DNA of 64,000 nt from Acidovorax sp. HDW3. GTDB lineage: Bacteria; Pseudomonadota; Gammaproteobacteria; Burkholderiales; Burkholderiaceae_C. This document shows, in pieces, positions 14,502 to 59,843 of this stretch. The position numbers were made by a program, and so were the translations under genes. The stretch covers positions 274,001-338,000 of the forward strand of contig NZ_CP049885.1 in the NCBI RefSeq assembly GCF_011303755.1, in the 5' to 3' direction. Positions within the stretch are counted from its first letter, which is position 1, and each line of letters starts with the position of its first letter. Below the pieces are notes generated by a model. It was not told the DNA's origin, did not search any database, and worked only from the letters and a program-made list of their open reading frames with translations.

Positions 14502-15578
14502 ATGATCCTCGTCACCGGCGGCGCCGGCTTCATCGGCGCCAACTTCGTGCTCGACTGGCTCGCCCACAGCGGCGAGCCCGTGCTCAACCTCGACAAGCTC
14601 ACCTACGCGGGCAATCTGCACAACCTCGCCAGCCTGCAGGGCGACGCGCGCCACGTCTTCGTGCAGGGCGACATTGGCGACCGCGCGCTGCTCGACCGCC
14701 TGCTGGCCGAGCACCAACCCCGGGCCATCGTCAACTTCGCCGCCGAGAGCCATGTGGACCGCTCCATCCACGGCCCCGAGGATTTCATCCAGACCAACGT
14801 CGTCGGCACTTTCAGGCTTTTGGAGGCTGCAAGGCACTACTGGAGCGCGCTACCAGCTATCAAAAAAGAAGCGTTCCGCTTCCTGCACGTGAGCACCGAC
14901 GAGGTCTACGGCACGCTCGCGCCCACCGACCCGGCCTTTACCGAAGAGCACAAGACCGAGCCCAACAGCCCCTACAGCGCCAGCAAGGCCGCCAGCGACC
15001 ACCTGGTGCGCGCCTGGCACCACACCTACGGCCTGCCGGTGCTGACCACCAACTGCAGCAACAACTACGGCCCGCTGCACTTCCCGGAAAAACTCATCCC
15101 GCTGATGATCGTCAACGCCCTGGCCGGCAAAAGCCTGCCGGTGTATGGCGACGGTATGCAGGTGCGCGACTGGCTCTATGTGCGCGACCACTGCCGGGCG
15201 ATTGCCCGCGTGCTCGACGCTGGCCGCCTGGGCGAGACCTACAACGTCGGCGGCTGGAACGAAAAGCCCAACATCGAGATCGTGCAGACCATCTGCGCCC
15301 TGCTCGACGAACTGCGCCCGCGTGCCGACGGCGCGAAGTACGCCAGCCAGATCACCTACGTCAAAGACCGCCCCGGCCACGATCGCCGCTACGCCATCGA
15401 CGCCCGCAAGATCGAGCGCGAACTGGGCTGGAAGCCTGCAGAAACCTTCGACACCGGCATCCGCAAAACCGTGCAGTGGTACCTGGACAACCCCGGCTGG
15501 GTGGCCACCGTGCAGTCCGGCGCCTACCGCGACTGGGTGGCCAAGCAATACGACGAAACCGACGGGGCTGGCGCATGA
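14502..15578 (+). CDS. rfbB: dTDP-glucose 4,6-dehydratase
   Basis: Second enzyme of dTDP-L-rhamnose synthesis, converting dTDP-glucose to the 4-keto-6-deoxy sugar with bound NAD. The 358-residue extended SDR has the glycine-rich [36 protein letters not shown], the active-site [11 protein letters not shown], catalytic [12 protein letters not shown], and [19 protein letters not shown]. Length is normal. A GATAAT at 14463-14468 may be the -10 box of the rfb operon, without a clear -35. Residues about 107-124 lie over a weak copy of the dispersed repeat. It overlaps rfbD by 4 bases (ATGA). Confidence 0.96.
14820..14872 (-). repeat. Possible dispersed repeat, degenerate copy C inside rfbB
   Basis: On the minus strand this reads TTTTTTGATAGCTGGTAGCG, then a spacer, TGCCTTGCAGCCTCC and AAAAGCCTGA. 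GATAGCTG-TAGCG and the distal TTGCAGCC match better copies of the family, but the arms hardly pair. It encodes RfbB residues about 107-124 in a region that aligns normally with other RfbB proteins, so chance similarity cannot be ruled out. Confidence 0.35.
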
Positions 15579-16465
15579 ACATCCTGTTGCTGGGCAAGGG
15601 CGGCCAGGTCGGCTGGGAGCTGCAGCGCAGCCTGGCCGTGCTCGGTGCGGTGACGGCGCTGGACTTTGACAGCCAGGAGCACTGCGGCGATTTTTCCAAT
15701 CCCGAGGGTGTGCGCGAGACCGTGCGCGCGCTCAAGCCCGACGTCATCGTCAACGCTGCCGCCCACACCGCCGTCGATAAGGCCGAGAGCGAGCCCGAGC
15801 TGGCCCGCTTGCTCAACGCCACCACCCCCGGCGTGCTGGCCGAAGAAGCGGCCCGCCTGGGCGCCTGGTTGGTGCACTACAGCACCGACTACGTGTTCGA
15901 CGGCAGCGGCAGCCGCCCCTGGCAGGAAACCGACACGCCCGCCCCGCTGTCGGTCTACGGCCGCACCAAGTGGGAGGGCGAGCAGGCCATCCAGCAATCG
16001 GGCTGCCAGCACCTGATTTTGCGCACCAGCTGGGTGTACGCCGCACGCGGCGGCAACTTTGCCAAGACCATGCTGCGCCTGGCCCAGGAGCACGAGCGCC
16101 TGACGGTGATCGACGACCAATGGGGCGCGCCCACCAGCGCCGAACTGCTGGCCGACGTGACCGCGCACGCCATTCGCCACCTGCAGCGCCACCCGCAAGA
16201 CGGTGGCCTGTACCACTGCGCCGCCGCAGGTGAAACCAACTGGCATTTGTATGCAAAACACGTGCTGGCGCTTGCCAGTCAAGCGCCAGCAGCTATCAAA
16301 ATCAAAGCAACCGACATCGCCCCCATCCCCACCAGCGCCTACCCCACGCCGGCCCAGCGCCCGCACAATTCGCGCCTGGACTGCAGCAAACTGCAAACCA
16401 CCTTCGGCCTGACACAGCCGCACTGGCAGCAGGGCGTGGCGCGCATGTTGACCGAAATTCTCTAA
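15575..16465 (+). CDS. rfbD: dTDP-4-dehydrorhamnose reductase
   Basis: Last enzyme of dTDP-L-rhamnose synthesis, reducing dTDP-4-keto-rhamnose with NAD(P)H. Seen in 296 residues: N-terminal [47 protein letters not shown], catalytic [28 protein letters not shown], and C-terminal [20 protein letters not shown]. The ATG overlaps the rfbB stop, showing translational coupling. Odd: residues about 230-245 ([16 protein letters not shown]) are encoded by a near-perfect copy of the dispersed palindrome, in the variable linker before the conserved PIPTS motif. Confidence 0.95.
16263..16307 (-). repeat. Dispersed palindromic repeat, copy D inside rfbD
   Basis: The clearest palindrome in the window: GCTGGCGCTTG and CAAGCGCCAGC are perfect 11-base arms around a 5-base loop, followed by AGCTATCAAAATCAAAG. 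On the minus strand it reads TTTTGATAGCTGCTGGCGCT, the standard orientation. It lies wholly inside rfbD and keeps the frame open. Confidence 0.85.
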
Positions 16466-16471
16466 AGCACC

Positions 16472-17359
16472 ATGACACAGCAACGCAAAGGCATCATCCT
16501 CGCCGGCGGCTCCGGCACCCGCCTGCACCCGGCCACGCTCGCCATCAGCAAGCAACTGCTGCCGGTGTACGACAAGCCCATGATTTACTACCCGCTCAGC
16601 ACCCTGATGCTGGCGGGCATCCGCGAGATCCTCATCATCAGCACGCCGCAGGACACGCCGCGCTTTGAACAACTGCTGGGCGACGGCAGCCAGTGGGGCC
16701 TCCACCTGCAATACGCCGTGCAGCCCAGCCCGGACGGGCTGGCGCAGGCCTTCCTGATCGGCGAGCAGTTCTTGAACGGCGCCCCCAGCGCTCTGGTGCT
16801 GGGCGACAACATTTTCTACGGCCATGACTTCCAGCCGCTGCTGCAGTCCGCCAATGCCCAGGCCAGCGGCGCCACCGTGTTCGCCTACCACGTGCACGAC
16901 CCCGAGCGCTACGGCGTGGTTGCCTTTGATGGCCAGGGCAAGGCCGTCAGCATCGAGGAAAAGCCCAAGGCGCCGCAATCGAACTACGCCGTCACCGGAC
17001 TGTACTTCTACGACAGCCAGGTGGTCGATATTGCCAAGGCCGTCAAGCCCAGCGCACGTGGCGAGCTGGAGATCACCAGCGTCAACCAGACCTACCTGGA
17101 GCAGGGGCAGCTGACGGTGAAAACCATGGGCCGGGGCTACGCCTGGCTTGACACCGGCACGCACGAGAGCCTGCTCGAAGCGAGCCAGTTCATTGCCACG
17201 CTGGAAAACCGCCAAGGGCTCAAGGTCGCCTGCCCCGAGGAAATCGCCTGGCGCAGCGGTTGGATTGATGCTGCCCGGCTCGAACGCCTGGCCCAGCCCC
17301 TGGCCAAGAACCGCTACGGCCAATACCTGCTGCAACTGCTTCAACACAAGGTCTACTGA
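16472..17359 (+). CDS. rfbA: Glucose-1-phosphate thymidylyltransferase
   Basis: First enzyme of the dTDP-L-rhamnose route: glucose-1-phosphate plus dTTP gives dTDP-glucose. The 295-residue protein opens with [20 protein letters not shown], the nucleotidyl-transferase signature, and continues with [52 protein letters not shown] and [17 protein letters not shown]. Length and motifs are canonical. It starts 6 bases after rfbD, and its stop codon overlaps the rfbC start. Confidence 0.97.
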
Positions 17360-17904
17360 TGCGCGCCACCCCCTTGGCCATTCCCGACGTGCTGCTGATC
17401 GAGCCCAAGGTGTTCGGCGACGCACGCGGCTTTTTCTTTGAGAGCTTTAATCAAAAAGCCTTCAACGAAGCCACCGACACCAATTACCAGTTTGTGCAAG
17501 ACAACCACAGCCGTAGCAGCCGTGGCGTGCTGCGCGGCCTGCATTACCAAATTCAGCAGCCCCAGGGCAAGCTCGTGCGCGTGGCGCGCGGTGCCGTGTG
17601 GGACGTGGCGGTAGACATCCGCAAAAGCTCGCCCACCTTTGGGCAGTGGGTGGGTGCGGAACTGAGTGAGGACAACCAGCACCAACTCTGGGTTCCGCCC
17701 GGTTTTGCCCATGGTTTCGTGGTGCAGAGCGAATCGGCTGATTTTTTGTACAAAACCACGGATTACTACGCACCGCAGTTTGAGCGCTGCATCGCGTGGA
17801 ATGATCCGCAGCTAAAAATTGAATGGCCCCTTGCCGAGCCGCCCCAATTGTCGGCCAAGGATGCACAGGGGGTGTTGCTGGCGCAGGCGCATCTGTTTGT
17901 TTGA
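17359..17904 (+). CDS. rfbC: dTDP-4-dehydrorhamnose 3,5-epimerase
   Basis: Third step of the rhamnose route, epimerising the keto-sugar at C3 and C5. The 181-residue cupin shows DVLLIEPKVFGDARGFFFES, VQDNHSRSSRGVLRGLHYQI, VRVARGAVWDVAVDIRKSSP, LWVPPGFAHGFVV and YKTTDYY, with the catalytic His in LHYQ. It is the last gene of rfbBDAC, which is therefore complete. A convergent gene ends 25 bases downstream; no clear terminator lies between them. Confidence 0.96.
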   Translation: MRATPLAIPDVLLIEPKVFGDARGFFFESFNQKAFNEATDTNYQFVQDNHSRSSRGVLRGLHYQIQQPQGKLVRVARGAVWDVAVDIRKSSPTFGQWVGAELSEDNQHQLWVPPGFAHGFVVQSESADFLYKTTDYYAPQFERCIAWNDPQLKIEWPLAEPPQLSAKDAQGVLLAQAHLFV

Positions 17905-17928: not shown

Positions 17929-19788
17929 CTACGGCTGGATGCTTTGAATCGATCGATACAGCGCGGCCGATCCAAACTTGTCATTGCTGGGGTCGAAGGA
18001 AAACAGGTTATGGCTGCGCGCCACGGCCTGCCCCTGCCAATAAGGCTCTAGAAAGAACGATAAAAACTGCGCGCCCCGTGCCGCATGGGTGTCGAACACC
18101 TGCTGCAGCGCGGGTGCATCGAGTGCCTTGAGCGGGTGAAACTCCGTAATGCCGTAGCTGCTACGTCCCGTTCCCCGGTACCAACGACTAAAGCCAGAAC
18201 CGTAAGCGGCGTCGCCATACAAACTCACGCCCAGACGGATGGTGCCTGTGTCGCGCAGTGAGGCATCAATGGCAAATTTATTGCTATCCCAACCCGGGTT
18301 GGTAAACGGAATGATCTGGTGTGTGTAGCGCGGTGTGTTTGCCAGGCAGGATGTGCTGAGCGCGCCATCAAAAAAGTGCAGGTAGTCCACCACCTGCTGG
18401 TTGCGAAATGCGTGCCATAGCGGTACCAGCGGGTTGTAGTAATAGGACTGCAGTGGCGCAGGCATGTCGATATATGCTTGCAAGTGCAGGGGGGCGGGAG
18501 TGCTCGGCGGTAGCGGGCGCTGCGGCTGCAGCACTGGCTGCCTTTGGTCTTGGCCCATGATGGCAATATCGCGCTGCCCCAGAGGCATGAGTTTGCCGGG
18601 TGCAGTTTCCAGAAAAAGATCCAGGCGATGCAGCCCGCTGGGCAGTTGTCGAAAATCCATGTCCAGGCGCCAGCCGGTATTGGCGTCGCCAAACTCCGGC
18701 TTTGCCTGTAGCACATCCTGGCGCCCCTGGTTGACCGCCGCCTTGCCGATGAAAGTGCCATTGCGGTACACATGCACCCAGGCTTTGCGCCCACCCGGTA
18801 CATAGGCCCAGCCTGCAATGGGCAGGCTGCCGTGGGCGTAGGGATCGATATGTTCGCTATAGCGCTGCAGGGGCTCGCTGCGAATGTCGCGGGAGGGCGG
18901 TTGTACCGCCCCAAAGTGGGGGTAGTCGCTCCCCAGGACGCGGTTGAGTTGATCAATCGTATGAAATTGGGTTTTCAGATACTGCTGAAATCCTGTGGCT
19001 GAGGCTTGGCTGTAATCCGTAATGCGGTATGGTGGCGCATAGCCCATACCGGCTTGAAAATCTGGAAACAACTGGTGCAGCTCGCCCAGCAGGGTGATGC
19101 CTCGGATTTTGGCGCGATCCTGCGCCGGCAACTGGCACAGAGCGTTCAGCAGCGCCGTGGTGGCCTGCACGCGCCGCACGGACAGCGTGTTGTCGGCGCG
19201 CGCCACGCTCCAGGGATAGACCGGATCGCCGTAATAGCTGTCAATCGGTAGTGGGCCGTCGCGCGTCTGCGCGAGGTTGCTCCGATCGCGGGCCAGTACG
19301 GGCTCAATGGGCGCGTGTTGTCCAAAATGCGTGGAAAACAAATACAGGATCAGTGGCCTGGCGCTGTCTTGTACGGTACGTGCCAGCCGCTGCACGCGCT
19401 CTGCATCAATCACCCAATCCTCGCCTTGGGCGCGAAACAACTGCAGCAACGGCACTGGGAGGGTGTAGCCCAGTGGGTAATGGCCGGAGGATGCGGCATG
19501 GGGCTGTAGCTGTGCCAAGGTGGCGTCGATCAGCGCTGCAGCCGAGCCCTGCTCACCCGTGCAGCGCTGCGCGAGCGAACCTGGCGCAGGCTGCGTGCTG
19601 GGGGCTGGTAGTGCAATGCAGGTGTCGATGACGCCCATCATGGGTGCCAGCAGCATCGTGCCTGCAGGGGTAGCCGTTACCGGCAGGGTTTGGCGAAACC
19701 ACCACGCGCCAGCGGCGCCTGCCACCAGAACGGCGCAGGCGGTGGCTAGGCAGACGAGAGGGCTGCGTTGAGGATCAGACGATGACAT
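17929..19788 (-). CDS. Membrane-anchored clan GH-A glycosidase-like protein (paralog of 52965-54815)
   Basis: A 619-residue protein with a single N-terminal membrane anchor (about 11-30) and a large, presumably periplasmic, remainder. Seen: ITLLGELHQLFPDF (Glu236), then a GH42-like helix pattern TDYSQASATGFQQYLKTQF, an inserted Ig-like module at about 320-410 (GWAYV...GRQDV...TGWRLD), AYIDMPAPLQSYYYNP, THQIIPF, and YGITEF (Glu549). The paralog at 53-54.8 kb keeps both glutamates (E227, E542) and all these stretches. Two invariant Glu at the ends of strands fit the acid/base and nucleophile of clan GH-A TIM barrels. Substrate unknown. It converges on rfbC and diverges from gspE. Function is inference. 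Confidence 0.65.
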   Translation of the reverse strand: MSSSDPQRSPLVCLATACAVLVAGAAGAWWFRQTLPVTATPAGTMLLAPMMGVIDTCIALPAPSTQPAPGSLAQRCTGEQGSAAALIDATLAQLQPHAASSGHYPLGYTLPVPLLQLFRAQGEDWVIDAERVQRLARTVQDSARPLILYLFSTHFGQHAPIEPVLARDRSNLAQTRDGPLPIDSYYGDPVYPWSVARADNTLSVRRVQATTALLNALCQLPAQDRAKIRGITLLGELHQLFPDFQAGMGYAPPYRITDYSQASATGFQQYLKTQFHTIDQLNRVLGSDYPHFGAVQPPSRDIRSEPLQRYSEHIDPYAHGSLPIAGWAYVPGGRKAWVHVYRNGTFIGKAAVNQGRQDVLQAKPEFGDANTGWRLDMDFRQLPSGLHRLDLFLETAPGKLMPLGQRDIAIMGQDQRQPVLQPQRPLPPSTPAPLHLQAYIDMPAPLQSYYYNPLVPLWHAFRNQQVVDYLHFFDGALSTSCLANTPRYTHQIIPFTNPGWDSNKFAIDASLRDTGTIRLGVSLYGDAAYGSGFSRWYRGTGRSSYGITEFHPLKALDAPALQQVFDTHAARGAQFLSFFLEPYWQGQAVARSHNLFSFDPSNDKFGSAALYRSIQSIQP

Positions 19789-19948: not shown

Positions 19949-21682
19949 ATGACGACACAATTTTTATCCGACCCGACGCCCGCGCAGGCGGAACCGGTCG
20001 CCAGCCTGCGTCCCTATCTGGGCGAGTTGCTGGTGCAGGCCGGCAAGCTCAGTGCCCGCGATCTCGATCGCGCCCTCTCCGCCCAGCAGGAAATGGGTGG
20101 AATGCTCGGGCGCGTGCTGGTGCGCCTAGGGTTGGTGTCCGAGCTGGACGTGGCACAGACCCTGTCGCGCCAGTTGAACGTGCCGTTGGTAGCGGCGGAG
20201 TCATTCCCCGAACTGATGCCCGAGGTGGACGGCCTACTGCCTGAATTCCTGCACGCCCATGCTGCATTCCCGCTGCGACAAGAGGGCCAGGAGCTGCATG
20301 TGGCGCTGGCGGTGCCGCAAGATGCGTTTGTGCTCAAGGCGCTGCACCTGGCCACCGGTTGCACCATCCGGCCCTACCTGGCGCTCGAAGGTGACATTGA
20401 AAAAGCCCTGGCCGAGCCCGAGGAGCAGGAGCAGCAAGAGGAAGAGGGCGGGTTCTCCGACGGCCTCGATGGTGGTGATTTCGTCGAGCACCTGAAAGAT
20501 CTGGCCAGCGAGGCACCTGTCATCCGCCTGGTCAATACCATCGTTGGTCGCGTCACCGATTTGCGCGCCTCCGACATTCACCTCGAACCCTTCGATGACG
20601 GCCTGCACGTGCGCTACCGTGTCGATGGCGTCATTCACCCCGGTGAAATTGTGCCCCCGCGCCTGTCCGCTGCTGTGGGCTCGCGCGTCAAGCTGCTGGC
20701 ACACCTGGACATCGCCGAGCGTCGCCTGCCGCAAGATGGCCGCATCAAAACCCGTGTCAAGGGCCGCGAACTCGATCTGCGCGTCTCCACCGTGCCGACC
20801 GTGCACGGTGAGAGCATCGTCATGCGTGTGCTCGACCGTGCCAGCGTGCGCCTGAACCTCGACACCATGGGCTTTGCCCCCGATACGCTGGCACGTTTTA
20901 ATGCCCTGTTGGCGCGGCCCCACGGCATTGTCCTCGTCACTGGCCCCACCGGCTCGGGCAAAACCACTACCTTGTACGCAGCGCTGTCCAAGATCGATGC
21001 CCAGGCCAACAAAATCATTACCGTGGAAGACCCGGTCGAGTACCAGCTCGAAGGCATCAACCAGATCCAGGTGCACCCGCAGATCAACCTGACCTTTGCG
21101 AACGCGCTACGCTCCATCCTGCGCCAGGATCCCGACATCATCATGATCGGCGAAATGCGCGACGGCGAAACCGCGCAGATCGCCGTGCAATCGGCCCTGA
21201 CCGGGCACCTGGTGTTGTCCACGCTGCACACCAATACGGCCGCAGGCGCCGTGATTCGAATGCAGGACATGGGGGTCGAGAGCTACCTTATCACCTCCTC
21301 GGTCAACGGCGTGCTGGCGCAGCGCCTGGTTCGTACTCTGTGCAACCATTGCAAAGAGGCTTACACCCCCGATGAGGAGCTTCGCCAGCGCACCGGCTTG
21401 GCACGCTTTACCGCTCCGGGGCAGGCCATTTACCGCGCAGTGGGCTGCGAGCATTGCCGCCAGTCGGGCTACCGGGGGCGAACCGGCATCCATGAGCTAT
21501 TTGTGCTCGACGAGCCTATGCGCCGCGCCATCATTGATGGCAAAGACGCCAACGCCCTCAATGCACTCGCTGCCCAGGGTGGAATGCTGAGCTTGTTCGA
21601 AGACGGTTTGCGCAAGGTGACCGCTGGCGTCACCACGCTCGATGAACTCGCCCGCGTGACCCAGGACCAGTCCGATGCCTGA
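19949..21682 (+). CDS. gspE: Type II secretion ATPase GspE
   Basis: Hexameric cytoplasmic ATPase that drives the type II secretion pseudopilus. The 577-residue protein has an N1E-type domain (RPYLGELLVQAGKLSARDLD), an unusually acidic linker near residues 155-170 (EPEEQEQQEEEGG), the N2E/catalytic part with ASDIHLEP, Walker A GPTGSGKTTTLYAAL, the Asp box ITVEDPVEYQLEGINQIQV, Walker B ILRQDPDIIMIGEMRDGETA, and the zinc CxxC pair CNHCKEA...CEHCRQSGYRGR. The start has GTGAGGCGG upstream; an in-frame ATG lies 30 bases earlier. It opens the gsp operon and overlaps gspF by 8 bases. Confidence 0.95.
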   Translation: MTTQFLSDPTPAQAEPVASLRPYLGELLVQAGKLSARDLDRALSAQQEMGGMLGRVLVRLGLVSELDVAQTLSRQLNVPLVAAESFPELMPEVDGLLPEFLHAHAAFPLRQEGQELHVALAVPQDAFVLKALHLATGCTIRPYLALEGDIEKALAEPEEQEQQEEEGGFSDGLDGGDFVEHLKDLASEAPVIRLVNTIVGRVTDLRASDIHLEPFDDGLHVRYRVDGVIHPGEIVPPRLSAAVGSRVKLLAHLDIAERRLPQDGRIKTRVKGRELDLRVSTVPTVHGESIVMRVLDRASVRLNLDTMGFAPDTLARFNALLARPHGIVLVTGPTGSGKTTTLYAALSKIDAQANKIITVEDPVEYQLEGINQIQVHPQINLTFANALRSILRQDPDIIMIGEMRDGETAQIAVQSALTGHLVLSTLHTNTAAGAVIRMQDMGVESYLITSSVNGVLAQRLVRTLCNHCKEAYTPDEELRQRTGLARFTAPGQAIYRAVGCEHCRQSGYRGRTGIHELFVLDEPMRRAIIDGKDANALNALAAQGGMLSLFEDGLRKVTAGVTTLDELARVTQDQSDA

Positions 21683-22946
21683 TTACGCCTGGCGGGCCGC
21701 CACAGCGGCGGGCAAGGTCGAAGAAGGCCACCTGAGTGCTGCCAGTGAGGCTGCAGCCCTCAAACAGTTGCGCACCCAGGGGCTCACCCCGCTGCGGCTG
21801 GAAGTGGCGACTGCCGTGGGCGCTACTGGCATGGCAGCGCCTGCGCAAACGGCGCGTGGTAATGCATCTCCCGTTTTACCGGCATCATCCCCATCACGGA
21901 TAGACAAGGGGCCGGTCACTGCGGCCGATGTGCACGCACTCACCGCCGAGCTGGCCATCATGCTACGTGCCGGCCTGGCACTCGATAACGCGCTGCGCGT
22001 GCTCATCGACATGGCGCACAAGCCGCGCCTGCGTGAGCTGGTGCAGGGCATCCTCGATGCCGTCAAAGGCGGCACACCGCTGTCGCGTGCGCTGGGCTCA
22101 CACCGGGAATTGTTTGGCGATTTTTATATCAACATGGTGCGCTCGGGCGAGATCAGCGGCCAGATGTCTGCTGTGCTTGACCGCCTGGTCGAGCACCTCG
22201 AACGCCAGCGTGCGCTGCGCGAGAGCGTCGTCTCAGCCACCATCTACCCGGCCATCTTGCTTGGCGTGGCCGTGCTCTCGCTCGTGGTCATGCTCGGCTT
22301 TGTCGTGCCGCAGTTTGAAAAACTCTTCACCGACATGGGCGATGCCCTGCCCCTGCCCACCCGCATCGTCATGGAAATGGGCCACGCCTTTCGGCGGTAT
22401 GGCCTGGTCATGGCCATCACTGCGGCAGGGGTCGTTATGCTGTTACTGCGCTGGCTGCGCTCCCCTTCCGGTTTGCAGTGGTGGCAAACGCGGCTGTTGC
22501 GCTTGCCGCTGGTGGGGCGGCTGACCCTCCGGTACCAACTCACACTGTTCTCGCGCTCACTGGGCACGCTGCTGGGCAATGGGGTGCCCATGCTGACAGC
22601 GCTGCACATCGCCACCGACACCGTGAGCAACACCGTTTTACAGCAGGCCCTGGCCAAGGTGGCCCCCATCGTCAAAGAAGGCGGCAAGGTGGTGCACGCC
22701 ATTGCTGCAACGGGCATTTTTGAACCTTTGGCCATCAACCTGATCCGAGTAGGCGAGGAGACGGGCCGCGTTGGCCCCATGATGCTGGAGCTGTCGAACA
22801 TCCTCAACCGTGAGGTCGAAACTGGTATCAAGCGCCTGCTCACCCTGGTCGAGCCCGTGCTCATCCTGGTGCTGGGTGTGCTCATTGCCGCCATCATCAT
22901 CTCCATCTTGCTCGGTATTCTGTCGATCAATGACCTCGCCGTATAA
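21675..22946 (+). CDS. gspF: Type II secretion inner-membrane platform protein GspF
   Basis: Polytopic platform protein that couples GspE to pseudopilus assembly. In 423 residues there are two T2SSF domains: the first about 90-210 (LTAELAIMLRAGLALDNALR, NMVRSGEISGQMSAVLDRLV) and the second about 290-415 (FSRSLGTLLGNGVPMLTALH, NLIRVGEETGRVGPMMLELS). Three hydrophobic segments are visible near 195, 240 and 400. Residues 45-80 form an Ala/Pro-rich linker. It begins within the end of gspE, indicating translational coupling. Confidence 0.95.
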   Translation: MPDYAWRAATAAGKVEEGHLSAASEAAALKQLRTQGLTPLRLEVATAVGATGMAAPAQTARGNASPVLPASSPSRIDKGPVTAADVHALTAELAIMLRAGLALDNALRVLIDMAHKPRLRELVQGILDAVKGGTPLSRALGSHRELFGDFYINMVRSGEISGQMSAVLDRLVEHLERQRALRESVVSATIYPAILLGVAVLSLVVMLGFVVPQFEKLFTDMGDALPLPTRIVMEMGHAFRRYGLVMAITAAGVVMLLLRWLRSPSGLQWWQTRLLRLPLVGRLTLRYQLTLFSRSLGTLLGNGVPMLTALHIATDTVSNTVLQQALAKVAPIVKEGGKVVHAIAATGIFEPLAINLIRVGEETGRVGPMMLELSNILNREVETGIKRLLTLVEPVLILVLGVLIAAIIISILLGILSINDLAV

Positions 22947-22974
22947 TTTTCGTTTGCCCAAGAAAGACCGTTCC

Positions 22975-23397
22975 ATGGTGAGTACCCGCTCCCGTCGCCG
23001 CGCGCGCGGCTTCACGCTGATTGAACTGCTGGTCGTGCTTGCCATCCTCACGCTGCTTGCGGGCCTGGTGGGGCCGCGCGTGCTCGGTCAACTCGGTGGC
23101 GCCAAATCGAAAACGGCGGCAGTGCAAATTGCCGACCTGGATAAATCGCTCGAACTCTTCAAACTCGACGTAGGCCGCTACCCGACGACAGAAGAAGGGC
23201 TCGACGCCCTGGTCAAAAAACCTGGCAGTGCCAATGCCTGGAACGGCCCCTACCTCAAAGGTGGTGTGCCGACCGACCCCTGGGGCCGCGTCTACCAGTA
23301 TGCGAACACCGGCGGCAAAATCGCCATCGTCTCGCTCGGTGCGGATGGCGCCGTGGGCGGCGAGGGTGAGGACGCTGATATTCGTAACATTCCTTGA
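22975..23397 (+). CDS. gspG: Major pseudopilin GspG
   Basis: Main subunit of the type II secretion pseudopilus. The 140-residue precursor has a basic leader ending RARG before FTLIELLVVLAILTLLAGLV, the prepilin-peptidase site with Glu at +5 of the mature protein. The C-terminal part carries GRYPTTEEGLDALVKKP, WNGPYLKGGVPTDPWGRVYQ and SLGADGAVGGEGEDADI, the calcium-binding GspG signature. The open frame extends upstream into gspF, but the ATG 28 bases after gspF gives the normal leader. The processing peptidase GspO/PilD is not encoded in the window. Confidence 0.95.
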   Translation: MVSTRSRRRARGFTLIELLVVLAILTLLAGLVGPRVLGQLGGAKSKTAAVQIADLDKSLELFKLDVGRYPTTEEGLDALVKKPGSANAWNGPYLKGGVPTDPWGRVYQYANTGGKIAIVSLGADGAVGGEGEDADIRNIP

Positions 23398-23456
23398 TGT
23401 CTTATCCTGTCTGGTAGGTGCGACTAAGGCCGTTCGTACGATGGGGAGATAGCACC

Positions 23457-23906
23457 ATGCGACGCGTCCAAGGCTTCACGCTGATCGAGCTGCTGGTAGT
23501 GTTTGTCATCATGGCGCTGCTCGTTTCGGTCGTACCTGCTGCATTCGATCGGATGCGCGAGGCTGTGCAATACCGCGACACCTTGCGCACTATCCAGGCG
23601 GATATGCGAAAGGCACGCCGCGAGGCATTGATGACCGGCAAAGAAACACGCTTCACCGTGGACATGCGCCAAAGGGTTTATGGACTGCAAGGGGAGCAGC
23701 GGCACGAGGTGCCTTCATCGCTGGAGTTGCGTGCCATTGTCGCGGGTGTCGAATCGAGCCCCTCGGGCATCGCTTCGATTCGTTTCCTGCCGCGCGGCGG
23801 AGCGACGGGTGGCAGCATCGATGTCCTGCGCGCGTCGGGATCGGGGGTGCGTCTGCGCGTTGATTGGCTCTCGGGTCTGGTTGCCCAAGAGGCGCTAACC
23901 CCATGA
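23457..23906 (+). CDS. gspH: Minor pseudopilin GspH
   Basis: Minor pseudopilin of 149 residues: short leader MRRVQG before FTLIELLVVFVIMALLVSVV, with the conserved Glu+5. The globular domain has RDTLRTIQADMRKARREALM, matching the GspH/FimT pattern, and ends in SIRFLPRGGATGGSIDVLRA. It lies 59 bases after gspG, and its stop overlaps the gspI start. Low sequence conservation in this family means the H assignment rests largely on the order G-H-I-J-K. Confidence 0.87.
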   Translation: MRRVQGFTLIELLVVFVIMALLVSVVPAAFDRMREAVQYRDTLRTIQADMRKARREALMTGKETRFTVDMRQRVYGLQGEQRHEVPSSLELRAIVAGVESSPSGIASIRFLPRGGATGGSIDVLRASGSGVRLRVDWLSGLVAQEALTP

Positions 23907-24322
23907 TGGGAGGCTGCGCTCGCCGAAGTCGTGGCATGACCTTGTTGGAGCTCTTGGTGGCTGTCGCAATCATGGCCATGTCCTTGGGTATGCTGTACCG
24001 CGCCTTGGGCGGCAGCGCCCGTGCTGCGGGTGATGTCGGTCGCTACCAGGAGGCGGTTTTCGTGGCTGAGAGTTTGTTGTACGCGAACGCCGACCTCCCT
24101 GAGGGCGGCTGGAATGAACAAGGCCAGTCTGGGGTTTTTCGCTGGAGCGTGCATTCCCGGCCCTATGCGACGGTGGTGCAGAGCAGCAGCCCGGATGCTG
24201 TGCCGTTGCACGCTCTGCAAGTCACGGTTGATTGGGAAGAGCAGGGCCGTGCGCGTTCGGTCGTATTGGGTATCCTAGTTCCGCAGCGGCCGCCACCATT
24301 GGTCAACGGAGGTGCGCGATGA
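23903..24322 (+). CDS. gspI: Minor pseudopilin GspI
   Basis: A 139-residue minor pseudopilin. Seen: leader MMGGCARRSRG followed by MTLLELLVAVAIMAMSLGML, so the residue after the cleavage Gly is Met rather than Phe, while Glu+5 is kept. The globular part is short and strand-rich. GspI with J and K is thought to form the tip of the pseudopilus. Start and stop overlap gspH and gspJ by 4 bases each. Two adjacent ATG codons are possible starts. Confidence 0.85.
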   Translation: MMGGCARRSRGMTLLELLVAVAIMAMSLGMLYRALGGSARAAGDVGRYQEAVFVAESLLYANADLPEGGWNEQGQSGVFRWSVHSRPYATVVQSSSPDAVPLHALQVTVDWEEQGRARSVVLGILVPQRPPPLVNGGAR

Positions 24323-24975
24323 GGCGTGCGGATCACCAGTCCGGTTTCACGCTGATCGAAATGTTGATCGCAATGGCACTGCTGTCCTTGCTTGCGCTGG
24401 GTATGGTTTTCGCGATGCGCACCATGGGCCAAACGCAAGACCGCATTGATCAGCGTTTCGCACGTGCCGATGAACTTCAGTCGGTCACTGCTTTTGTCCA
24501 GACCGTCTTGGAGCGTCTTTCGAGCAGGCGTGCAGGTTTGCAAGAACCGGGCAAAGCACTGCTTTTGTTCAGCGGCACGCAGCAGTCGATCGAATGGTTG
24601 GGCATCATGCCCGCCCGACATGGCATGGGCGGTCGGTATTTTTTTCGGCTCGCCGTCGAGCCGGCGGCATCAGCCCAGGCCCTGGTGCTGCGCTACCAAC
24701 CCTGGCAGGGCGAGGTATCCCTGCCCGACTGGTCGGCCGCCCGTTCGCGCATTCTTGTGTCCGACGTAGTAGGCATGGACATCGGCTACGGTGGCAAGGA
24801 GATGGCGCCTCAGCAATGGGTGCCCGTTTGGGCGCAGACAGAGTCATTGCCCGTGCGCATACGGCTAGGCGTGACTACGCGCGATGGGGCCTGGCCGTTG
24901 TGGATCGTCGGGACACGCGCCCTGTCGCCGGGTGGGGGGCGTTCAAGTATGTATTCCCATGGGCCAGGAAGCTAG
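24319..24975 (+). CDS. gspJ: Minor pseudopilin GspJ
   Basis: A 218-residue minor pseudopilin with leader MRRADHQSG and mature start FTLIEMLIAMALLSLLALGM (Glu+5 kept). The C-terminal domain of about 180 residues is typical in size for GspJ. Start overlaps gspI; GGAGGTGCGCG upstream serves as Shine-Dalgarno. It would form the I-J-K tip complex. Identity follows from length, leader and operon position rather than from a diagnostic motif. Confidence 0.85.
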   Translation: MRRADHQSGFTLIEMLIAMALLSLLALGMVFAMRTMGQTQDRIDQRFARADELQSVTAFVQTVLERLSSRRAGLQEPGKALLLFSGTQQSIEWLGIMPARHGMGGRYFFRLAVEPAASAQALVLRYQPWQGEVSLPDWSAARSRILVSDVVGMDIGYGGKEMAPQQWVPVWAQTESLPVRIRLGVTTRDGAWPLWIVGTRALSPGGGRSSMYSHGPGS

Positions 24976-24994
24976 CGTGCATGGGGTGTATTCC

Positions 24995-25837
24995 ATGGTG
25001 ATGTACGCATTTCACCGATCCACGCAGCGGGGCATGGCACTCATCATGGTGCTATGGGTCACCGCTGCGTTGGCTATCGTCGTCACCAGCATCGGGTATA
25101 TGGTGAAGGGCGAGCTGCGCCAGGTCGCCGCCGTGCGCACCGGCGCTGCAGACAGGGCCATGGGTCGGGCCGCGATGGCGCTGGCGCTCCAGGAACTGGA
25201 CGCCAGCAACCGCAGAAGGCTGGAGCGCCCCGAGCGACACACTTACTTGTTCGAGGGCACCGCCGTGGACGTTTTGGCGCTGCCGCTCAATGGTCTGCTG
25301 GACATCAACCGGGCGCCGGTAGCACTCCTGGCCGCGCTGTTTCAACATGCGGGCGGCTTGGCGCCGGACGCTGCCCAGAACCTTGCAGCAGCGCTGATCG
25401 AAATACGCTCGGCACGTACGCCACAGGGCGCAACCGCCCAGTTTGACGCCATTGAAGACCTGCTCCAGCTACCGGGAGTGGACTACGAGCTTTATGCTAG
25501 ACTCGCGCCGCTCATAACAGTCAATGCGGGAGGCAGCAGTCAGGTCAATCCCTATGCCGCTCCCCCAGCATTGCTGAGAGTTCTAGCAGAGGGAAATCAG
25601 GCGGCGGTCGCAGCCTTCGAGGCGGGCAGAGACTCTGGCACTGCCGACCAGTCTGGATTCAACCCCGCATTCCTCACTTCCAGCGGTTCCAACAGGTTGC
25701 GACTGTATGCCCAGCCAGCTGAGAGTGCGCAAGCTATTTCCACGGTGGCTTGTGACGTGACTTTTTTCGGTCGCAGATCTGGTGCGCTACCGTGGGAAAG
25801 CCAGCAGTGCGATGCCCCAACAACTCCGATGTGGTGA
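24995..25837 (+). CDS. gspK: Minor pseudopilin GspK
   Basis: A 280-residue GspK. Seen: basic leader ending STQRG before MALIMVLWVTAALAIVVTSI; the +5 position is Met rather than Glu, as is usual for GspK, which caps the pseudopilus. The large domain has LNGLLDINRAPVALLAALFQ and QFDAIEDLLQLPGVDYELYA, the helix-hairpin-helix-like parts of the family. The ATG at 24995 is preferred because GGGGTG lies upstream; 24959, overlapping gspJ, is also in frame. Confidence 0.87.
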   Translation: MVMYAFHRSTQRGMALIMVLWVTAALAIVVTSIGYMVKGELRQVAAVRTGAADRAMGRAAMALALQELDASNRRRLERPERHTYLFEGTAVDVLALPLNGLLDINRAPVALLAALFQHAGGLAPDAAQNLAAALIEIRSARTPQGATAQFDAIEDLLQLPGVDYELYARLAPLITVNAGGSSQVNPYAAPPALLRVLAEGNQAAVAAFEAGRDSGTADQSGFNPAFLTSSGSNRLRLYAQPAESAQAISTVACDVTFFGRRSGALPWESQQCDAPTTPMW

Positions 25838-25858
25838 ACAGTCTCCCTTGCGCACATA

Positions 25859-26938
25859 ATGGCAGAAAATATGGAAAACGACCGCTTTCTAGGTCTGCGC
25901 TGGCGCAGCGTCTGGGCTGCGGTAGCCAAACCTTGGCAGCAGGCCCCCGGTTGGTTTTGGGTGCGCGCGTTGACCCCCTCGGTTCCAGTTACTTTGGTGG
26001 GGGTAGATGGCGGGAAGGTGCTGTGGGTAGCATCTTTGCATGGGGATATAACCGGCCCGCAGTCACAGGGCCGTGCAGACCATGCCGCTGTGGAATTGCC
26101 ACAGGCATTGGTATTGCACAGGTGCGTGACGCTGCCGCAGCTGGAAGAGAGTGAGCTGCAGCGTGCCATCGAGCTCGAAGCCATCGCCAGTAGTCCTTTC
26201 CCGGCGGGGGATCTGTGCTGGGGGCATCGTGCTATTCACCTCGTCCAGGGAGCGGTTAGCCAAGTAGAAGTAGAACTTGTGCTCGCATCGCGTCGTCAGG
26301 TTGAGGAGTATCTTGCTGGCCGTGGAGCGTTGTTGCCCGACGTCAGGTGTGCGCCTGAAGTTTGGGCGAGGTCGGAGGCGACACCGGGGCAATATTTGGT
26401 TTTTCAGGGGTTTGGTGAACAGGCCCGACGGGCGCAACACCGTTTGGGTCGCACCCTGAATCTGATGATTGTTGGGTTCATCGTGGTACTTGTGGTATTG
26501 ATTGCGATCACCCCCACCTTGCAGCTGCGTGCACGTGCCATTGAGGCCGTGAAGGCGTACGACGATCTCCATACCCGATCGCGCAATGCGGTCGCTAGCC
26601 GCGAAGCTCTGGTGCGCTCGTCCGAGCGTGTTCAGCAGATAGAAAACCTGCTCCACGAAACGCTTGATCCAGTGCAGGCCCTGAATCTGCTGACTCGGGC
26701 GCTGCGCGACGACACCAGCCTTACAGCTCTATATTTCAAGGGGCGGAAGGTGACGTTGGAGGGACAGACCACCAATGCCGCAGAGCTTATGCAACTACTG
26801 GGCAAGCAGCCAGGCTTCGAGGATGTGGTCGCACCCGTTCCGGCTACACGGGGTTTTGGTAGCAACAAGGATAATTTCAAGATTGAATTCATGCTCGATG
26901 CATCGCGTGCTGCCGCGTCCGAAAGGGCTACGCCATGA
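25859..26938 (+). CDS. gspL: Type II secretion protein GspL-like (PilN-type C-terminus)
   Basis: Inner-membrane assembly protein expected to join GspE to GspM. The 359-residue chain has a cytoplasmic N-terminal part of about 200 residues, one membrane segment (LMIVGFIVVLVVLIAI, about 206-222), a helical stretch, and a ferredoxin-like periplasmic part with DPVQALNLLTRALRDDTSLT. The cytoplasmic part is shorter than classical GspL (about 240), and I cannot see a clear actin-like motif, so it resembles the PilM/PilN-like GspL of other Burkholderiales. An ATG at 25871 is an alternative start. It overlaps gspM by 4 bases. Confidence 0.8.
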   Translation: MAENMENDRFLGLRWRSVWAAVAKPWQQAPGWFWVRALTPSVPVTLVGVDGGKVLWVASLHGDITGPQSQGRADHAAVELPQALVLHRCVTLPQLEESELQRAIELEAIASSPFPAGDLCWGHRAIHLVQGAVSQVEVELVLASRRQVEEYLAGRGALLPDVRCAPEVWARSEATPGQYLVFQGFGEQARRAQHRLGRTLNLMIVGFIVVLVVLIAITPTLQLRARAIEAVKAYDDLHTRSRNAVASREALVRSSERVQQIENLLHETLDPVQALNLLTRALRDDTSLTALYFKGRKVTLEGQTTNAAELMQLLGKQPGFEDVVAPVPATRGFGSNKDNFKIEFMLDASRAAASERATP

Positions 26939-27489
26939 ACCTGCAGGTCGTCAAAAGCAATTGGGTTCTTGTTGCCACCGCGCTGGTGTTGCTCGCGTCG
27001 ATCATTGGCGGGGGCGTTTATGTATATCAAAAGCACCAGTGGGCCACTGTCCGGCTAGCAGAACTCGAGCCTCGCTATGCGCGCTTGGCGGGTATCTTGG
27101 CTGCTGAATCCGGGCTTGAGCAGGCGAACCAGCAAGCCGACGCTATGCTGGGCGCTTACCTGTATCCAGCTGACAAAGTGCTCAATCAGGCCGGCAACGA
27201 AATGCAGCAGCAGGTGCGCGATGTGTTGTCCGCAGGTGGTTTGCGTGTGGGCAGTAGTCAGGTGCTGCCGCCGAAAGCGGACAGCACCAGCCTTGATCGT
27301 ATCCAGTTAACCATCAAGGCTGAAGGTGAATTGTTGGCCCTGCAAACGGCCATGATCGGCCTCAAGAGCATTAAACCGGCAGTTTTCGTCGACAGCCTGT
27401 CGGTAAGTGTGATGGGCGCCGCGCGCGTGGAAGTGCCGCAAAATCTTTCCATACAAATGGAGCTTTCTGCGTGGCGGGTACATCCATGA
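26935..27489 (+). CDS. gspM: Type II secretion protein GspM-like
   Basis: Bitopic inner-membrane protein of 184 residues: membrane segment about 10-28 (WVLVATALVLLASIIGGGVY), coiled region with LAELEPRYARLAGILAAESG, and a ferredoxin-like C-terminal domain (QVRDVLSAGGLRVGSSQVLP, LQTAMIGLKSIKPAVFVDSL). This is the GspM/PilO-like fold that pairs with GspL. It overlaps gspL at its start and the next gene at its end. Assignment rests on topology and position. Confidence 0.82.
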   Translation: MNLQVVKSNWVLVATALVLLASIIGGGVYVYQKHQWATVRLAELEPRYARLAGILAAESGLEQANQQADAMLGAYLYPADKVLNQAGNEMQQQVRDVLSAGGLRVGSSQVLPPKADSTSLDRIQLTIKAEGELLALQTAMIGLKSIKPAVFVDSLSVSVMGAARVEVPQNLSIQMELSAWRVHP

Positions 27490-28121
27490 GGCCGCATATG
27501 CTTCGGACGAGCTTACTATTGTTGGGTCTCGCACTACTGGTGATCCTGCTAACCCTATGGGTCGATACCCAGGGGAAGATACGCCATATCCATTGGGCGC
27601 AGCCTGAACCTAAGAGCCTGGACGTTGCAGGCCTGATTACGCCCCTGCCGGTGCGTAATTTTGAGCAGGGCCAGTTTCTTGAAACCTTGGACAGGCCTTT
27701 GTTTTCTCCATCGCGCCGCCCGCCACCGCCGCCACAGCCGTCCGCACCCCCAGAAGAAGCAGCCTCGCCCTTGACGGGTGTCCATATTTATGGAATTTAC
27801 GGCACAGGCAGCCAGGGCGGCGCAATCCTCGGCGTTGACGGCAAGAATCTTCGCCTTGCCGTGAATCAGGCCGTCAAAGGTTGGCAGCTCGTTTCCATTG
27901 ATGGCAATCGCCTGACATTCCGTCGTGGTACGCGTCAGCATGTGCTTGAACTCGTGCACTACATACCGCCCAAAGGTGCTAAGGTTACTAGCGTTGCGCC
28001 GGCACAGTCCGTGCCGCAAATTTCAGTACAGGCGCCTGCTCAGCCTGAGCAGCCGGTTGCGTCAACGCCACCCACGCCGGCATCCCCGCCGCAATACGGC
28101 GGAATTCAATCCCGAAAATGA
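27486..28121 (+). CDS. Type II secretion GspC-like protein lacking a PDZ domain
   Basis: A 211-residue protein with one N-terminal membrane segment (LLLLGLALLVILLTLWV), a Pro-rich linker (PPPPPQPSAPP, about 75-90), an HR-like beta domain (GVHIYGIYGTGSQGGAILGV, LVSIDGNRLTFRRGTRQHVL) and a Pro/Ala-rich tail. Membrane segment, linker, then a small beta domain is the layout of GspC, which docks the inner-membrane platform to the secretin, but a C-terminal PDZ or coiled coil is missing. Relatives are sometimes labelled GspN, so I leave the symbol empty. It overlaps gspM and directly precedes gspD. Confidence 0.75.
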   Translation: MRPHMLRTSLLLLGLALLVILLTLWVDTQGKIRHIHWAQPEPKSLDVAGLITPLPVRNFEQGQFLETLDRPLFSPSRRPPPPPQPSAPPEEAASPLTGVHIYGIYGTGSQGGAILGVDGKNLRLAVNQAVKGWQLVSIDGNRLTFRRGTRQHVLELVHYIPPKGAKVTSVAPAQSVPQISVQAPAQPEQPVASTPPTPASPPQYGGIQSRK

Positions 28122-28184
28122 TGGATTGCGTTGCAATCATGCGCTGCTGCATGCTCACCCGCAGTTGATAAAAGATTTAAAGTC

Positions 28185-30620
28185 ATGACATTCAAGCGAC
28201 CTGCCATCCCATTGGCCGTGCTGGCCCTAGCTGCCTGCGCCGCACCTGCCGACAAGTCGGCAACGCCGGCTGAGGCGTCACCGCCCCCGATTGTTGTCAA
28301 GGCCGCTCCCGAGCCGGCCCCTGCGCCGCAACAGCCTGCGAGCCCGGCTGCGGCGAAAGAGGGTGCAGTTGATACTGGTGTGCCAAACAAGCAGGAATCG
28401 CGGCTTGAACCCCGCATCATCAAGGGTGACGATCAGGTTATTGCGCCGCCTCGTAACGTGCCCAGCCTCGAAGGGCCTGCCAGCGCTTTCAAATTTGAAG
28501 ACGCCCCAATCAGTGAAGTCGTGCACGTGATGATGCGAGACATTTTGAAGGTGGGCTACGAGTTGCATCATCCTGTAGCCGGCTCTATTACGCTGGATAC
28601 TCGTGTTCCCGTCACACCTGATAATGCCGTCGCTATGCTGGAATCGGCCTTGTTGGCCAACGGGTTGATCCTGGTGCGCGATACGCGCGGCGTATTCCAT
28701 GTGGGCAAGCCCGATGTGCTGCGCAACATCGGCACTTCGGTGCGCCAGCCTTACAAGGGCGGTCTGCCCCCGGGTTATGGGGCCATCGTTGTGCCGCTGC
28801 AGTACATTGGCGCCTCGGAGATGGCAACGATTCTTAAGCCTCTGATGCCTACCGAGGCACTTGTGCGGGTAGACAACGTACGCAATCTTCTGGTGCTGGC
28901 GGGCACGCGCGTACAGGCTGAAGGCTGGCTTGATTTGGTCAACACCTTCGATGTGAACATGCTCAAGGGCATGTCGGTAGGTGTATTTCCCCTGAAACAC
29001 GCCAGCATCGCCGAAGTCGAAGCGGCTCTGCAATTACTTGGTTCGGCCAGTGGTGCTGGCTCAGCTGCTGGCGGTGCGCCGGCCGTTGCACGAACTGGCG
29101 CTGCGCAGCCAGCGGGTGCAGTCACCCCGGCACCGGCTGCCAGTCCTGTTGTCGCGATTGATGGCGATAGTTTTCCGCTGCGCGGCGCGCTGCGCATTCT
29201 GCCCATTGCGCGGATTAACAGCATCCTCGTGGTAACGCCGCGTGCTGCGTACTTGGAAGAGGCGCGTCGCTGGATTGAGAAATTGGATCAACCGAGCGAC
29301 AACGGTGCCGATCCACAACTGCACATTTACAAGGTGGAAAACGGCAATGCCAAACACCTTGCGGGCGTGCTTGCCGGTATCTTTGGCGGTACTGCGGCCG
29401 GCGGTACACAACCCACGGGTGTGGCACCTGGTCTCAACAGTGCGGCCAGCAATACCTTTGGCCAGTTCGGTAACAACTTTGGTGGGAATTGGGGTAACAA
29501 TTCCGGTGGCACTTTCGGGACTAGTGCTGGCAACTCCTTTGGTCGTCTGAACTCGGGGGGCGGTGGGCTCGCCTCGCAGAACCGCCAAGGCCTGGGTGGC
29601 ACCGCTGGATTCCCGGCTGGTACTACGGCCACCCCGATTGTCGCCAACATCGGTAGCGTCCGAGTTATGGCTGACGAACTCAATAACTCCATCCTCGTCT
29701 GGAGCACGCGCGCCGAATTTTTGAAGATCGAATCTACCCTCAAGCGCCTGGATCTACCGCCCACACAGGTGCTCATAGACGCCTCCATCATTGAAGTCAC
29801 CCTCAACGACAGCCTGCAATACGGCCTGCAATGGGCCTTTAGTGGCGGTACTGGCGGCGGGCGTACGGGCATTGGCCAGCTATCCACCGGCAGTAACAAC
29901 CCGAATAACAGCGGCAGCCTCAACGTCGCGGCGGGCAGTGGCTTTTCCTACTCACTCATCAACTCGGCGGGCAATGTGCGCGTTGTGCTCAACGCCTTGG
30001 CCAGCCAGGATTTGCTTAAGGTCATCTCTAGCCCTTCATTGATGGTGTTGGACAATCACACCGCCACTATGGCCGTGGGCGACCAAGTGCCAGTTCTCAC
30101 CAGCACTACCGACATTCTCACCACCACCGGCGCCGTCACCAGCACCGTGCAATACCGCGACACCGGCGTCAGCCTGGCGGTGACGCCCTCGGTGAACTCT
30201 GGCAACTTGGTCACTATGCAGATTGACCAGACCATGACCGATCAGTCAGCCAGTGTGGGCGCTAACAACCAGCCCATCTTCCTGCAGCGCCAGATTGGCA
30301 GCAAAGTCGCGGTGCGCAGCGGCGAGACCATCGTGCTCGGTGGCCTCATCAAGGACAATCGCACCTCGGGCAAGGCCGGCGTTCCGGTTCTCAAGGACGT
30401 CCCGTTGCTCGGCAACTTGTTTAGTAACACCAACGACACTGGCAAGCGCACCGAGCTGCTCGTTGTCATCACCCCCAAGGTGGTGCGTACCGACCCTGAG
30501 ATCCGCGAGGTCAGTGAAGAGTTACGAGATCGCCTCAAGGGTTTAGGCATCATTGAAATGCGTGATCGTGCCAAATCAACACCCGCTAGCTCGGCCCTCC
30601 AGCCCTCGCCACCGCAGTGA
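28185..30620 (+). CDS. gspD: Type II secretion secretin GspD
   Basis: Outer-membrane secretin of 811 residues forming the exit channel. It has a lipoprotein-like signal with LAVLALAAC, then a Pro/Ala-rich spacer, an N0 domain (FKFEDAPISEVVHVMMRDIL, about 100-170), N1-N3 domains (VPLQYIGASEMATILKPLMP; VFPLKHASIAEVEAALQLLG; YKVENGNAKHLAGVLAGIFG), interrupted by Ala- and Gly/Asn-rich inserts (about 285-325 and 420-480), and the C-terminal secretin domain with VGDQVPVLTSTT, QIGSKVAVRSGETIVLGGLI and VPVLKDVPLLGNLFSNTNDT. The chosen ATG gives the lipobox; the frame is open further upstream. It closes the gsp operon; gspO and a classical pilotin are not nearby. Confidence 0.94.
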   Translation: MTFKRPAIPLAVLALAACAAPADKSATPAEASPPPIVVKAAPEPAPAPQQPASPAAAKEGAVDTGVPNKQESRLEPRIIKGDDQVIAPPRNVPSLEGPASAFKFEDAPISEVVHVMMRDILKVGYELHHPVAGSITLDTRVPVTPDNAVAMLESALLANGLILVRDTRGVFHVGKPDVLRNIGTSVRQPYKGGLPPGYGAIVVPLQYIGASEMATILKPLMPTEALVRVDNVRNLLVLAGTRVQAEGWLDLVNTFDVNMLKGMSVGVFPLKHASIAEVEAALQLLGSASGAGSAAGGAPAVARTGAAQPAGAVTPAPAASPVVAIDGDSFPLRGALRILPIARINSILVVTPRAAYLEEARRWIEKLDQPSDNGADPQLHIYKVENGNAKHLAGVLAGIFGGTAAGGTQPTGVAPGLNSAASNTFGQFGNNFGGNWGNNSGGTFGTSAGNSFGRLNSGGGGLASQNRQGLGGTAGFPAGTTATPIVANIGSVRVMADELNNSILVWSTRAEFLKIESTLKRLDLPPTQVLIDASIIEVTLNDSLQYGLQWAFSGGTGGGRTGIGQLSTGSNNPNNSGSLNVAAGSGFSYSLINSAGNVRVVLNALASQDLLKVISSPSLMVLDNHTATMAVGDQVPVLTSTTDILTTTGAVTSTVQYRDTGVSLAVTPSVNSGNLVTMQIDQTMTDQSASVGANNQPIFLQRQIGSKVAVRSGETIVLGGLIKDNRTSGKAGVPVLKDVPLLGNLFSNTNDTGKRTELLVVITPKVVRTDPEIREVSEELRDRLKGLGIIEMRDRAKSTPASSALQPSPPQ

Positions 30621-31106: not shown

Positions 31107-31171
31107 CGCCAGAAGAGGCCATCCCTCTTCTTCTTCAGCGGGGGCTATCGTGTGGCCGACAATGCCGCCTC

Positions 31172-39207: not shown

Positions 39208-39305
39208 GACGTTCAAATTGGGTGTTTTTTAACCAGAATTCACGGCTAAAGCCGCTCTGGCCTGTGGCAAGCGGCGCGCAGGAATAATTTCAGCTGCCAA
39301 CCGCT

Positions 39306-40226: not shown

Positions 40227-40280
40227 AGTAGATACAAGGCGCGATAGGCGCGGAAACAAAACTCAGAATGCTGAGCAGAA

Positions 40281-56147: not shown

Positions 56148-56241
56148 GTGGGATGGGTAAGACGGCTTAGCGTCAGGCTCGGGTCTGATGGTGCAGCATG
56201 AGCGTGGGGAATAGGTGTGTAGATTTTTGGTATGGGGTGTT

Positions 56242-58209: not shown

Positions 58210-58217
58210 AGATGGCT

Positions 58218-59843
<1,626 letters not shown>

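Follow-up and report, generated by a model that had tools for sequence, protein, structure and literature searches.

The window analyzed here is a stretch of 64,000 nucleotides from Acidovorax sp. HDW3 (contig NZ_CP049885.1, positions 274,001 to 338,000). It raises the question of what a glycosidase-like protein, P0001, is doing between a set of dTDP-rhamnose genes and a T2SS operon, and on which sugar chain it might act. The features of the window are collected in Table 1.

Paralogous Proteins P0001 and P0002

An earlier note on this DNA had described P0001 as a singly anchored protein with the motifs GELHQLFPDF (containing E236), TDYS...FQQYL, and YGITEF (containing E549), and this reading of the motifs is borne out by the open reading frame and the sequence. 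A single anchor is plausible. P0001 has one N-terminal hydrophobic segment (residues about 10–30), a candidate membrane anchor, with a hydropathy maximum of 2.06 for the 19-residue window starting at residue 11, and all windows past residue 60 reach at most 0.73. The paralog that the note had placed at 53–54.8 kb is indeed present as P0002, the N-terminus of which resembles a signal peptide. The two proteins are 34% identical over 548 residues (E = 1e-95), and a search of the whole host genome returned these two copies only.

Table 1. Features of the window referred to in the text
Feature	Coordinates	Strand	Remark
rfbB-rfbD-rfbA-rfbC, dTDP-rhamnose genes	14502..17904	+	convergent with paralog A
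Paralog A (P0001), GH-A-like barrel protein, 619 aa	17929..19788	-	ORF list and sequence
E549 codon, predicted nucleophile, end of β-7 (YGITEF)	18142..18144	-	49/49 invariant; strand order
β-sandwich inserted after α-4, residues 318–411	18556..18837	-	model
GH42-like TDYS...LN...Y..F stretch, residues 257–300	18889..19020	-	profile matches
E236 codon, predicted acid/base, directly past β-4 (LLGELH)	19081..19083	-	49/49 invariant; aligned with GH42 acid/base Glu
T2SS operon gspE, F, G ... M, D, second non-canonical class	19949..30620	+	divergent from paralog A
Wzt (weak Wzt_C) and Wzm, O-polysaccharide ABC exporter	37157..39216	-	
PPIC-type prolyl isomerase	39306..40259	-	adjoins S-layer-like gene
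S-layer protein candidate P0003, NpdA-like, 511 aa	40330..41865	-	no domain in Pfam; signal peptide assigned by eye
Methyltransferase + GT2 + GT4 multimodule protein, probable O-polysaccharide polymerase/terminator	41910..45800	-	role inferred
HAD-IIB phosphatase, operon partner of paralog B	52123..52968	-	
Paralog B (P0002 plus its start Met), 616 aa	52965..54815	-	signal-peptide-like N-terminus
GT2, GtrB/polyprenyl-phosphate-sugar-synthase-like, operon partner of paralog B	54812..55786	-	
EamA/SMR-like small transporter, candidate flippase	55800..56285	-	just under Pfam cutoff
Large membrane protein, candidate GT-C enzyme	56242..58317	-	no Pfam match; inferred from position and composition

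Predicted Fold and Catalytic Glutamates

An AlphaFold2 model of P0001 (pLDDT 76, pTM 0.73) was built from 11 sequences taken from the window and from genome contigs. The strand order of the model is that of a (β/α)8 barrel, in which β-4 (residues 228–232) is followed by E236 and β-7 (residues 545–551) bears E549. A fold search with VIA-align 2 returned the GH42 structure 5xb7_E as the top match (Z 23.6, rmsd 3.7, 345 residues aligned) and GH35 and GH14 structures next, with Z near 21–23. The structural alignment to GH42 runs through residue 619. A model with P0002 as the query was of lower confidence (64.7) and matched the β-galactosidase 5e9a_A with a Z of 20.3. The TIM barrel postulated in the earlier note is thus supported by both the model and the fold search. 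The active-site loops 242–254 and 496–506 of the P0001 model are of low confidence.

E236 and E549 are invariant in alignments of 11, 30, and 49 sequences (49/49 in the largest). This invariance does not reflect mere closeness of the sequences, because identity within the family reaches down to about 26% and just 49 columns of the 49-sequence alignment have one exception or none. The conserved glutamate pair therefore holds in a wide alignment, with its members at β-4 and β-7 as expected, and we infer from these positions a retaining reaction in which E236 may act as the acid/base and E549 as the nucleophile. In a profile-profile comparison with 13 GH42 sequences, residues 131–304 of P0001 were matched with E = 2.3e-10 and E236 fell on the acid/base Glu; an hmmsearch to the GH35 enzyme IaSGT gave E = 3.7e-7 over profile positions 256–302. 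With these two values, the GH42-like stretch of P0001 is beyond chance.

The residue preceding the acid/base is Asn in clan GH-A, but in this family the position is an invariant glycine (Gly235, 49/49). Of the clan GH-A assignment made earlier, the barrel and the glutamates after β-4 and at β-7 stand, but the Asn of the clan is missing. For this reason P0001 and P0002 are better described, on present sequences and models, as GH-A-like than as proven members of the clan. The β-sandwich module inserted in the barrel (window positions 18541–18846 with its margins) has relatives in GT2 and PMT-type glycosyltransferases, some of which match Big_7. Relatives of the module are carried by two other loci, L047 and L050, the former with several repeats.

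Relation to Known Glycosidase Families

The best Pfam match of P0001 and P0002 is PF02449 (GH42), with 15.1 and 17.8 bits against a curated cutoff of 21 bits. Neither protein has a match in NCBIfam, and neither has a Pfam match to GH39, the family of PslG, at E up to 10. As the earlier note had concluded, the protein could not be placed in a known GH family with these two libraries; no Pfam or NCBIfam model names P0001, and GH42 falls under its cutoff. With GH42 it shares the barrel fold, the position of the acid/base, and the motif of helix α-4 (SYS..F..W....Y..I..LN.). It differs in its score, in the Gly that replaces Asn, in the β-sandwich inside the barrel, and in leaving no space for the C-terminal domains of GH42; moreover, the second half of the barrel has no sequence similarity to GH42 (residues 430–619, hhalign probability 0.3%). 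The identification of P0001 as a GH42 enzyme or β-galactosidase was rejected because of the score below cutoff, the missing Asn, and the unmatched second half.

The GH14 β-amylases 1b90 and 1veo align with the model at Z of about 22. There is a weak profile match of 1b90 to P0001 over residues 234–299, which covers the same GE motif and is not significant (E 0.07), and no Pfam match to GH14. The GH14 β-amylases are inverting α-glucan exo-enzymes. IaSGT (7vkx) and the GlmA-type GH35 structure 6jow match the model with Z of 22–23, and IaSGT is the best sequence-profile match of the family in the PDB, but that likeness is confined to 47 residues. These GH35 proteins also differ in that IaSGT is a transferase without a signal peptide and GlmA is an exo-glucosaminidase. 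IaSGT transfers glycosyl units and has no hydrolytic activity (PMC8861115). We have used PslG of P. aeruginosa, a retaining endo-β-glucosidase whose gene is part of the Psl cluster (PMC11912335), as a working analog, in that it is a glycosidase encoded beside the biosynthesis genes of the organism's own polysaccharide. The polysaccharide and the locus are different, however, and PslG, absent from the fold and sequence matches listed, is taken as an analog and not as a relative. P0001 and P0002 belong to a genuine GH-A-like family that has as yet no name. The earlier reading was largely right on the fold and the catalytic pair, overconfident on the clan, and incomplete on the genomic context.

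Distribution and Two Clades

The family was found in 36 of 401 genomes of the same bacterial family, representing 15 of 141 genera. Outside this bacterial family, samples of 369 (class), 300 (order), and 398 (phylum) genomes contained no full-length homologs, and the matches in them were short and limited to the GH42 motif or the β-sandwich. A phage search gave no homolog. In a tree of 49 sequences, clade A (with P0001) and clade B (with P0002) are separated with full support.

The clade A genes are mostly found between rfbBDAC and a T2SS operon in which gspE is divergent, and in four genomes they are near Wzm/Wzt genes. A reading of the 19.9–30.6 kb genes of the window as type IV pilus genes was rejected; the NCBIfam matches are gspF, gspG, gspM, and gspD, with gspE as the best fit, and the junction beside clade A is therefore rfbC | gspE. 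Most clade B genes have prfC on one side and a HAD gene on the other, and share this interval with a GT2, large membrane proteins, and a transporter of the GtrA or EamA-like type. A second copy of the family is present in 20 of the 23 clade B carriers, one such copy being a remnant. In five genomes of genus g20 (L096–L099 and L088), the rfbC | gspE site holds a clade B protein rather than a clade A one, as though some family member were required there. At one locus (L093:6866-10965), a clade A and a clade B gene form a tandem pair overlapping by 4 bp, away from rfb and S-layer-like genes. At another (L115, G150:C1:643978-644169), all that is left of the clade B gene is a 65-aa remnant (75% identity), and its Gtr-type neighbors persist.

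The P0002 gene overlaps the stop of the GT2 gene and the start of the HAD gene by 4 bp each. At L083, 4-bp overlaps join the clade B gene to a GT2 on one side and to a GtrA (PF04138, 1.3e-17) on the other, and all clade B neighbor pairs of the overlapping kind, among those listed, are on one strand. The Gtr-type parts found around clade B are a GtrB-type GT2, GtrA in L081 and L083, the EamA-like protein in the window, and the large membrane protein of the window, which has no family match. Three-component Gtr systems (PMC11127046) resemble this arrangement in the GtrB-like GT2, the GtrA/EamA-like flippase, and the large membrane GT candidate; a glycosidase component is absent from the portion of that description consulted. 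Judged by its neighbors' sequences, paralog B appears to sit in a GtrA/GtrB-type operon.

Genomic Partners of the Family

Co-occurrence was measured in 80 genomes of the same bacterial family, composed of the 36 carriers and 44 non-carriers from 44 genera. Of the carriers, 35/36 have a match to P0003, against 0/44 of the non-carriers (Fisher 6e-22; by genus 14/15 versus 0/44, 1e-12), and Wzt_C is present in 33/36 versus 5/44 (Fisher 8e-14; by genus 13/15 versus 5/44, 2e-7). These p-values are inflated, because the carriers cluster in 15 genera and share descent of the locus. RmlC, used as a control, does not discriminate (36/36 versus 42/44). T2SS in general was rejected as the explanation: GspD-type secretins match in 80/80 genomes, and, among the matches listed, only a second GspD class discriminates (390–460 bits, a bit-score class that includes the GspD of the window; 34/36 carriers versus 2/44 non-carriers). 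The non-carriers G004 and G019, which have a second T2SS among the matches listed, contain Wzt_C and lack both the P0003 match and the glycosidase. From these two genomes only, the glycosidase gene tracks the S-layer-like protein and not the T2SS alone.

The nearest Wzt_C is within 20 kb in 18 of 24 contigs that hold both genes. The S-layer-like gene is within 25 kb in 23 of 27 contigs and adjacent in two genomes of the same genus; at L109, from that genus, the glycosidase and P0003-like genes are divergent neighbors. G390, a fragmented assembly, has a glycosidase gene and none of the partners. The earlier note had asked about co-occurrence with wzm/wzt or rfb genes, and both parts hold, Wzt by the counts above and rfb by its linkage to clade A. 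What it had left out was the larger locus (second T2SS, S-layer-like protein, and Wzm/Wzt) and the Gtr-type operon of paralog B.

P0003 has a 25-aa signal peptide (assigned by eye) and a mature chain of 486 residues and 50.3 kDa, no domain was found in a Pfam search, and gsp genes are clustered at its locus. The S-layer/nanopod protein NpdA of the Comamonadaceae is described as having a 25-aa signal peptide, a mass of 52.4 kDa, and no domains, and as adjoining a cluster of 12 gsp genes (PMC10765051). The NpdA S-layer is reported to assemble only with LPS (PMC3110197). The four species named in our list of homologs are Simplicispira metamorpha, S. psychrophila, Ottowia beijingensis, and Comamonas badia, and all are in the published npdA table (PMC10765051). 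The two loci are thus alike in having a T2SS cluster next to a protein that bears a 25-aa signal peptide and has no known domain, and their species overlap; the passages of PMC3110197 and PMC10765051 consulted make no mention of a glycosidase or Wzm/Wzt. P0003 is an NpdA-like S-layer candidate, likened to NpdA (WP_011797163) by these described features. In G022 (C1:3193760-3200361), several P0003-like genes lie in tandem far from the T2SS locus, which suggests an expansion of S-layer-like proteins.

Broken Copies in Enterobacteriaceae

A tblastn search of plasmids returned one outsider, a 30% homolog on a K. pneumoniae replicon that is split over several reading frames. It lies between the his operon and genes for an 1188-aa GT, Wzt, Wzm, GT2, and rfbC/D/A; the K. 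pneumoniae fragment is annotated as β-galactosidase, and the region read contains no S-layer-like gene. The same locus is found on the chromosome of E. coli A27 (L118, 1503994-1518064), where the big protein is named GT99 family; of the glycosidase gene, no more than a 71-bp remnant is left beside IS1, with IS26 also nearby. WbbB, which adds the terminal β-Kdo, and WbbL are part of the O12 O-polysaccharide pathway of K. pneumoniae (PMC11231755), and the term GT99 is also used in a WbbB paper (PMC9587256). We call the locus O12-like because GT99/WbbB and WbbL belong to the O12 pathway. The presence of the gene in an O-polysaccharide locus with no S-layer-like gene in the region read argues for the polysaccharide as the substrate, rather than the S-layer protein.

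Proposed Function and Alternatives

The family is almost confined to bacteria with an S-layer candidate and the exporter, and it therefore probably edits the sugar chains under the coat. We somewhat favor a catalytically active GH-A-like glycosidase or transglycosidase of the envelope that edits the exported O-polysaccharide by which the S-layer would be anchored. In the proposed sequence, Wzm/Wzt would export an O-polysaccharide that probably contains rhamnose, and the membrane-held P0001 and soluble P0002 would then trim or edit the chain in the periplasm by a retaining reaction using E236 and E549. Clade B may work alongside the Gtr-type side-chain system. The finished chain would reach the surface and anchor an NpdA-like S-layer exported by the adjoining T2SS. 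Counting against this are the Gly in place of Asn, the second half of the barrel that is unlike GH42, the low-confidence loops, the broken copies in K. pneumoniae and E. coli, and G390.

A strict transglycosidase, which would transfer a glycosyl unit to the exported O-polysaccharide or between chains rather than hydrolyze the polysaccharide, and would work with the GtrB/flippase/GT-C operon, has a modest chance of being correct. The nearest sequence match with a structure is the non-hydrolyzing transferase IaSGT (PMC8861115) and paralog B lies within a Gtr-type operon, but the likeness to IaSGT spans 47 residues only, and Gtr-type systems already have a transferase of their own. It is rather improbable that the protein is secreted by the T2SS and acts at the surface on an S-layer protein glycan or an extracellular polysaccharide. 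The place of paralog A beside the T2SS, with gspE running divergently in the majority of loci, would also fit secretion to the surface; the N-terminus of paralog B is of the cleavable type, and the S-layer-like gene is the strongest genomic partner. Paralog A, however, retains its anchor, clade B is tied to a Gtr operon elsewhere, and the K. pneumoniae copy is at an O-antigen locus with no S-layer gene in the stretch read.

We regard a carbohydrate-binding relative of the glycosidases with no catalytic activity as quite unlikely. The Asn before the acid/base is missing and a β-sandwich module is inserted, but both glutamates at the catalytic positions are invariant in 49 sequences with identities down to about 26%. 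A β-galactosidase-like enzyme for nutrient scavenging would agree with the annotation of the K. pneumoniae fragment and with a fold nearest to GH42 and GH35, but it is hardly credible next to neighbors that are O-polysaccharide, T2SS, and S-layer-like genes, with no conserved uptake or catabolic genes nearby.

The editing of O-polysaccharide, which remains our preferred reading, can be extended. It is plausible, though we propose this tentatively, that these proteins are an undescribed GH family whose specific task is the maturation of an O-polysaccharide on which an S-layer exported by the T2SS is anchored, and that the family is common to these bacteria and the O12-like loci of Enterobacteriaceae. 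Such an envelope-editing step is absent from the parts of the NpdA/nanopod descriptions consulted, and a text search of the literature returned no paper joining glycosidase, S-layer, and O-polysaccharide. What is new here is the genomic context of the family, namely, its co-occurrence with the S-layer candidate and Wzt_C. If the proposal is true, it supplies an enzyme for a step to which we found none assigned, the editing of O-polysaccharide before S-layer attachment, and the GH-A-like barrels gain a family in which the Asn of the clan is, unusually, replaced by Gly. With co-occurrence this close to perfect, the connection of that LPS with its exporter and this enzyme can be tested directly. 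The window also contains, bordering the O-polysaccharide cluster, a convergent pair of paralogs with DUF7657 and DUF7654, at 31082–33637 (+) and 33703–36264 (-).
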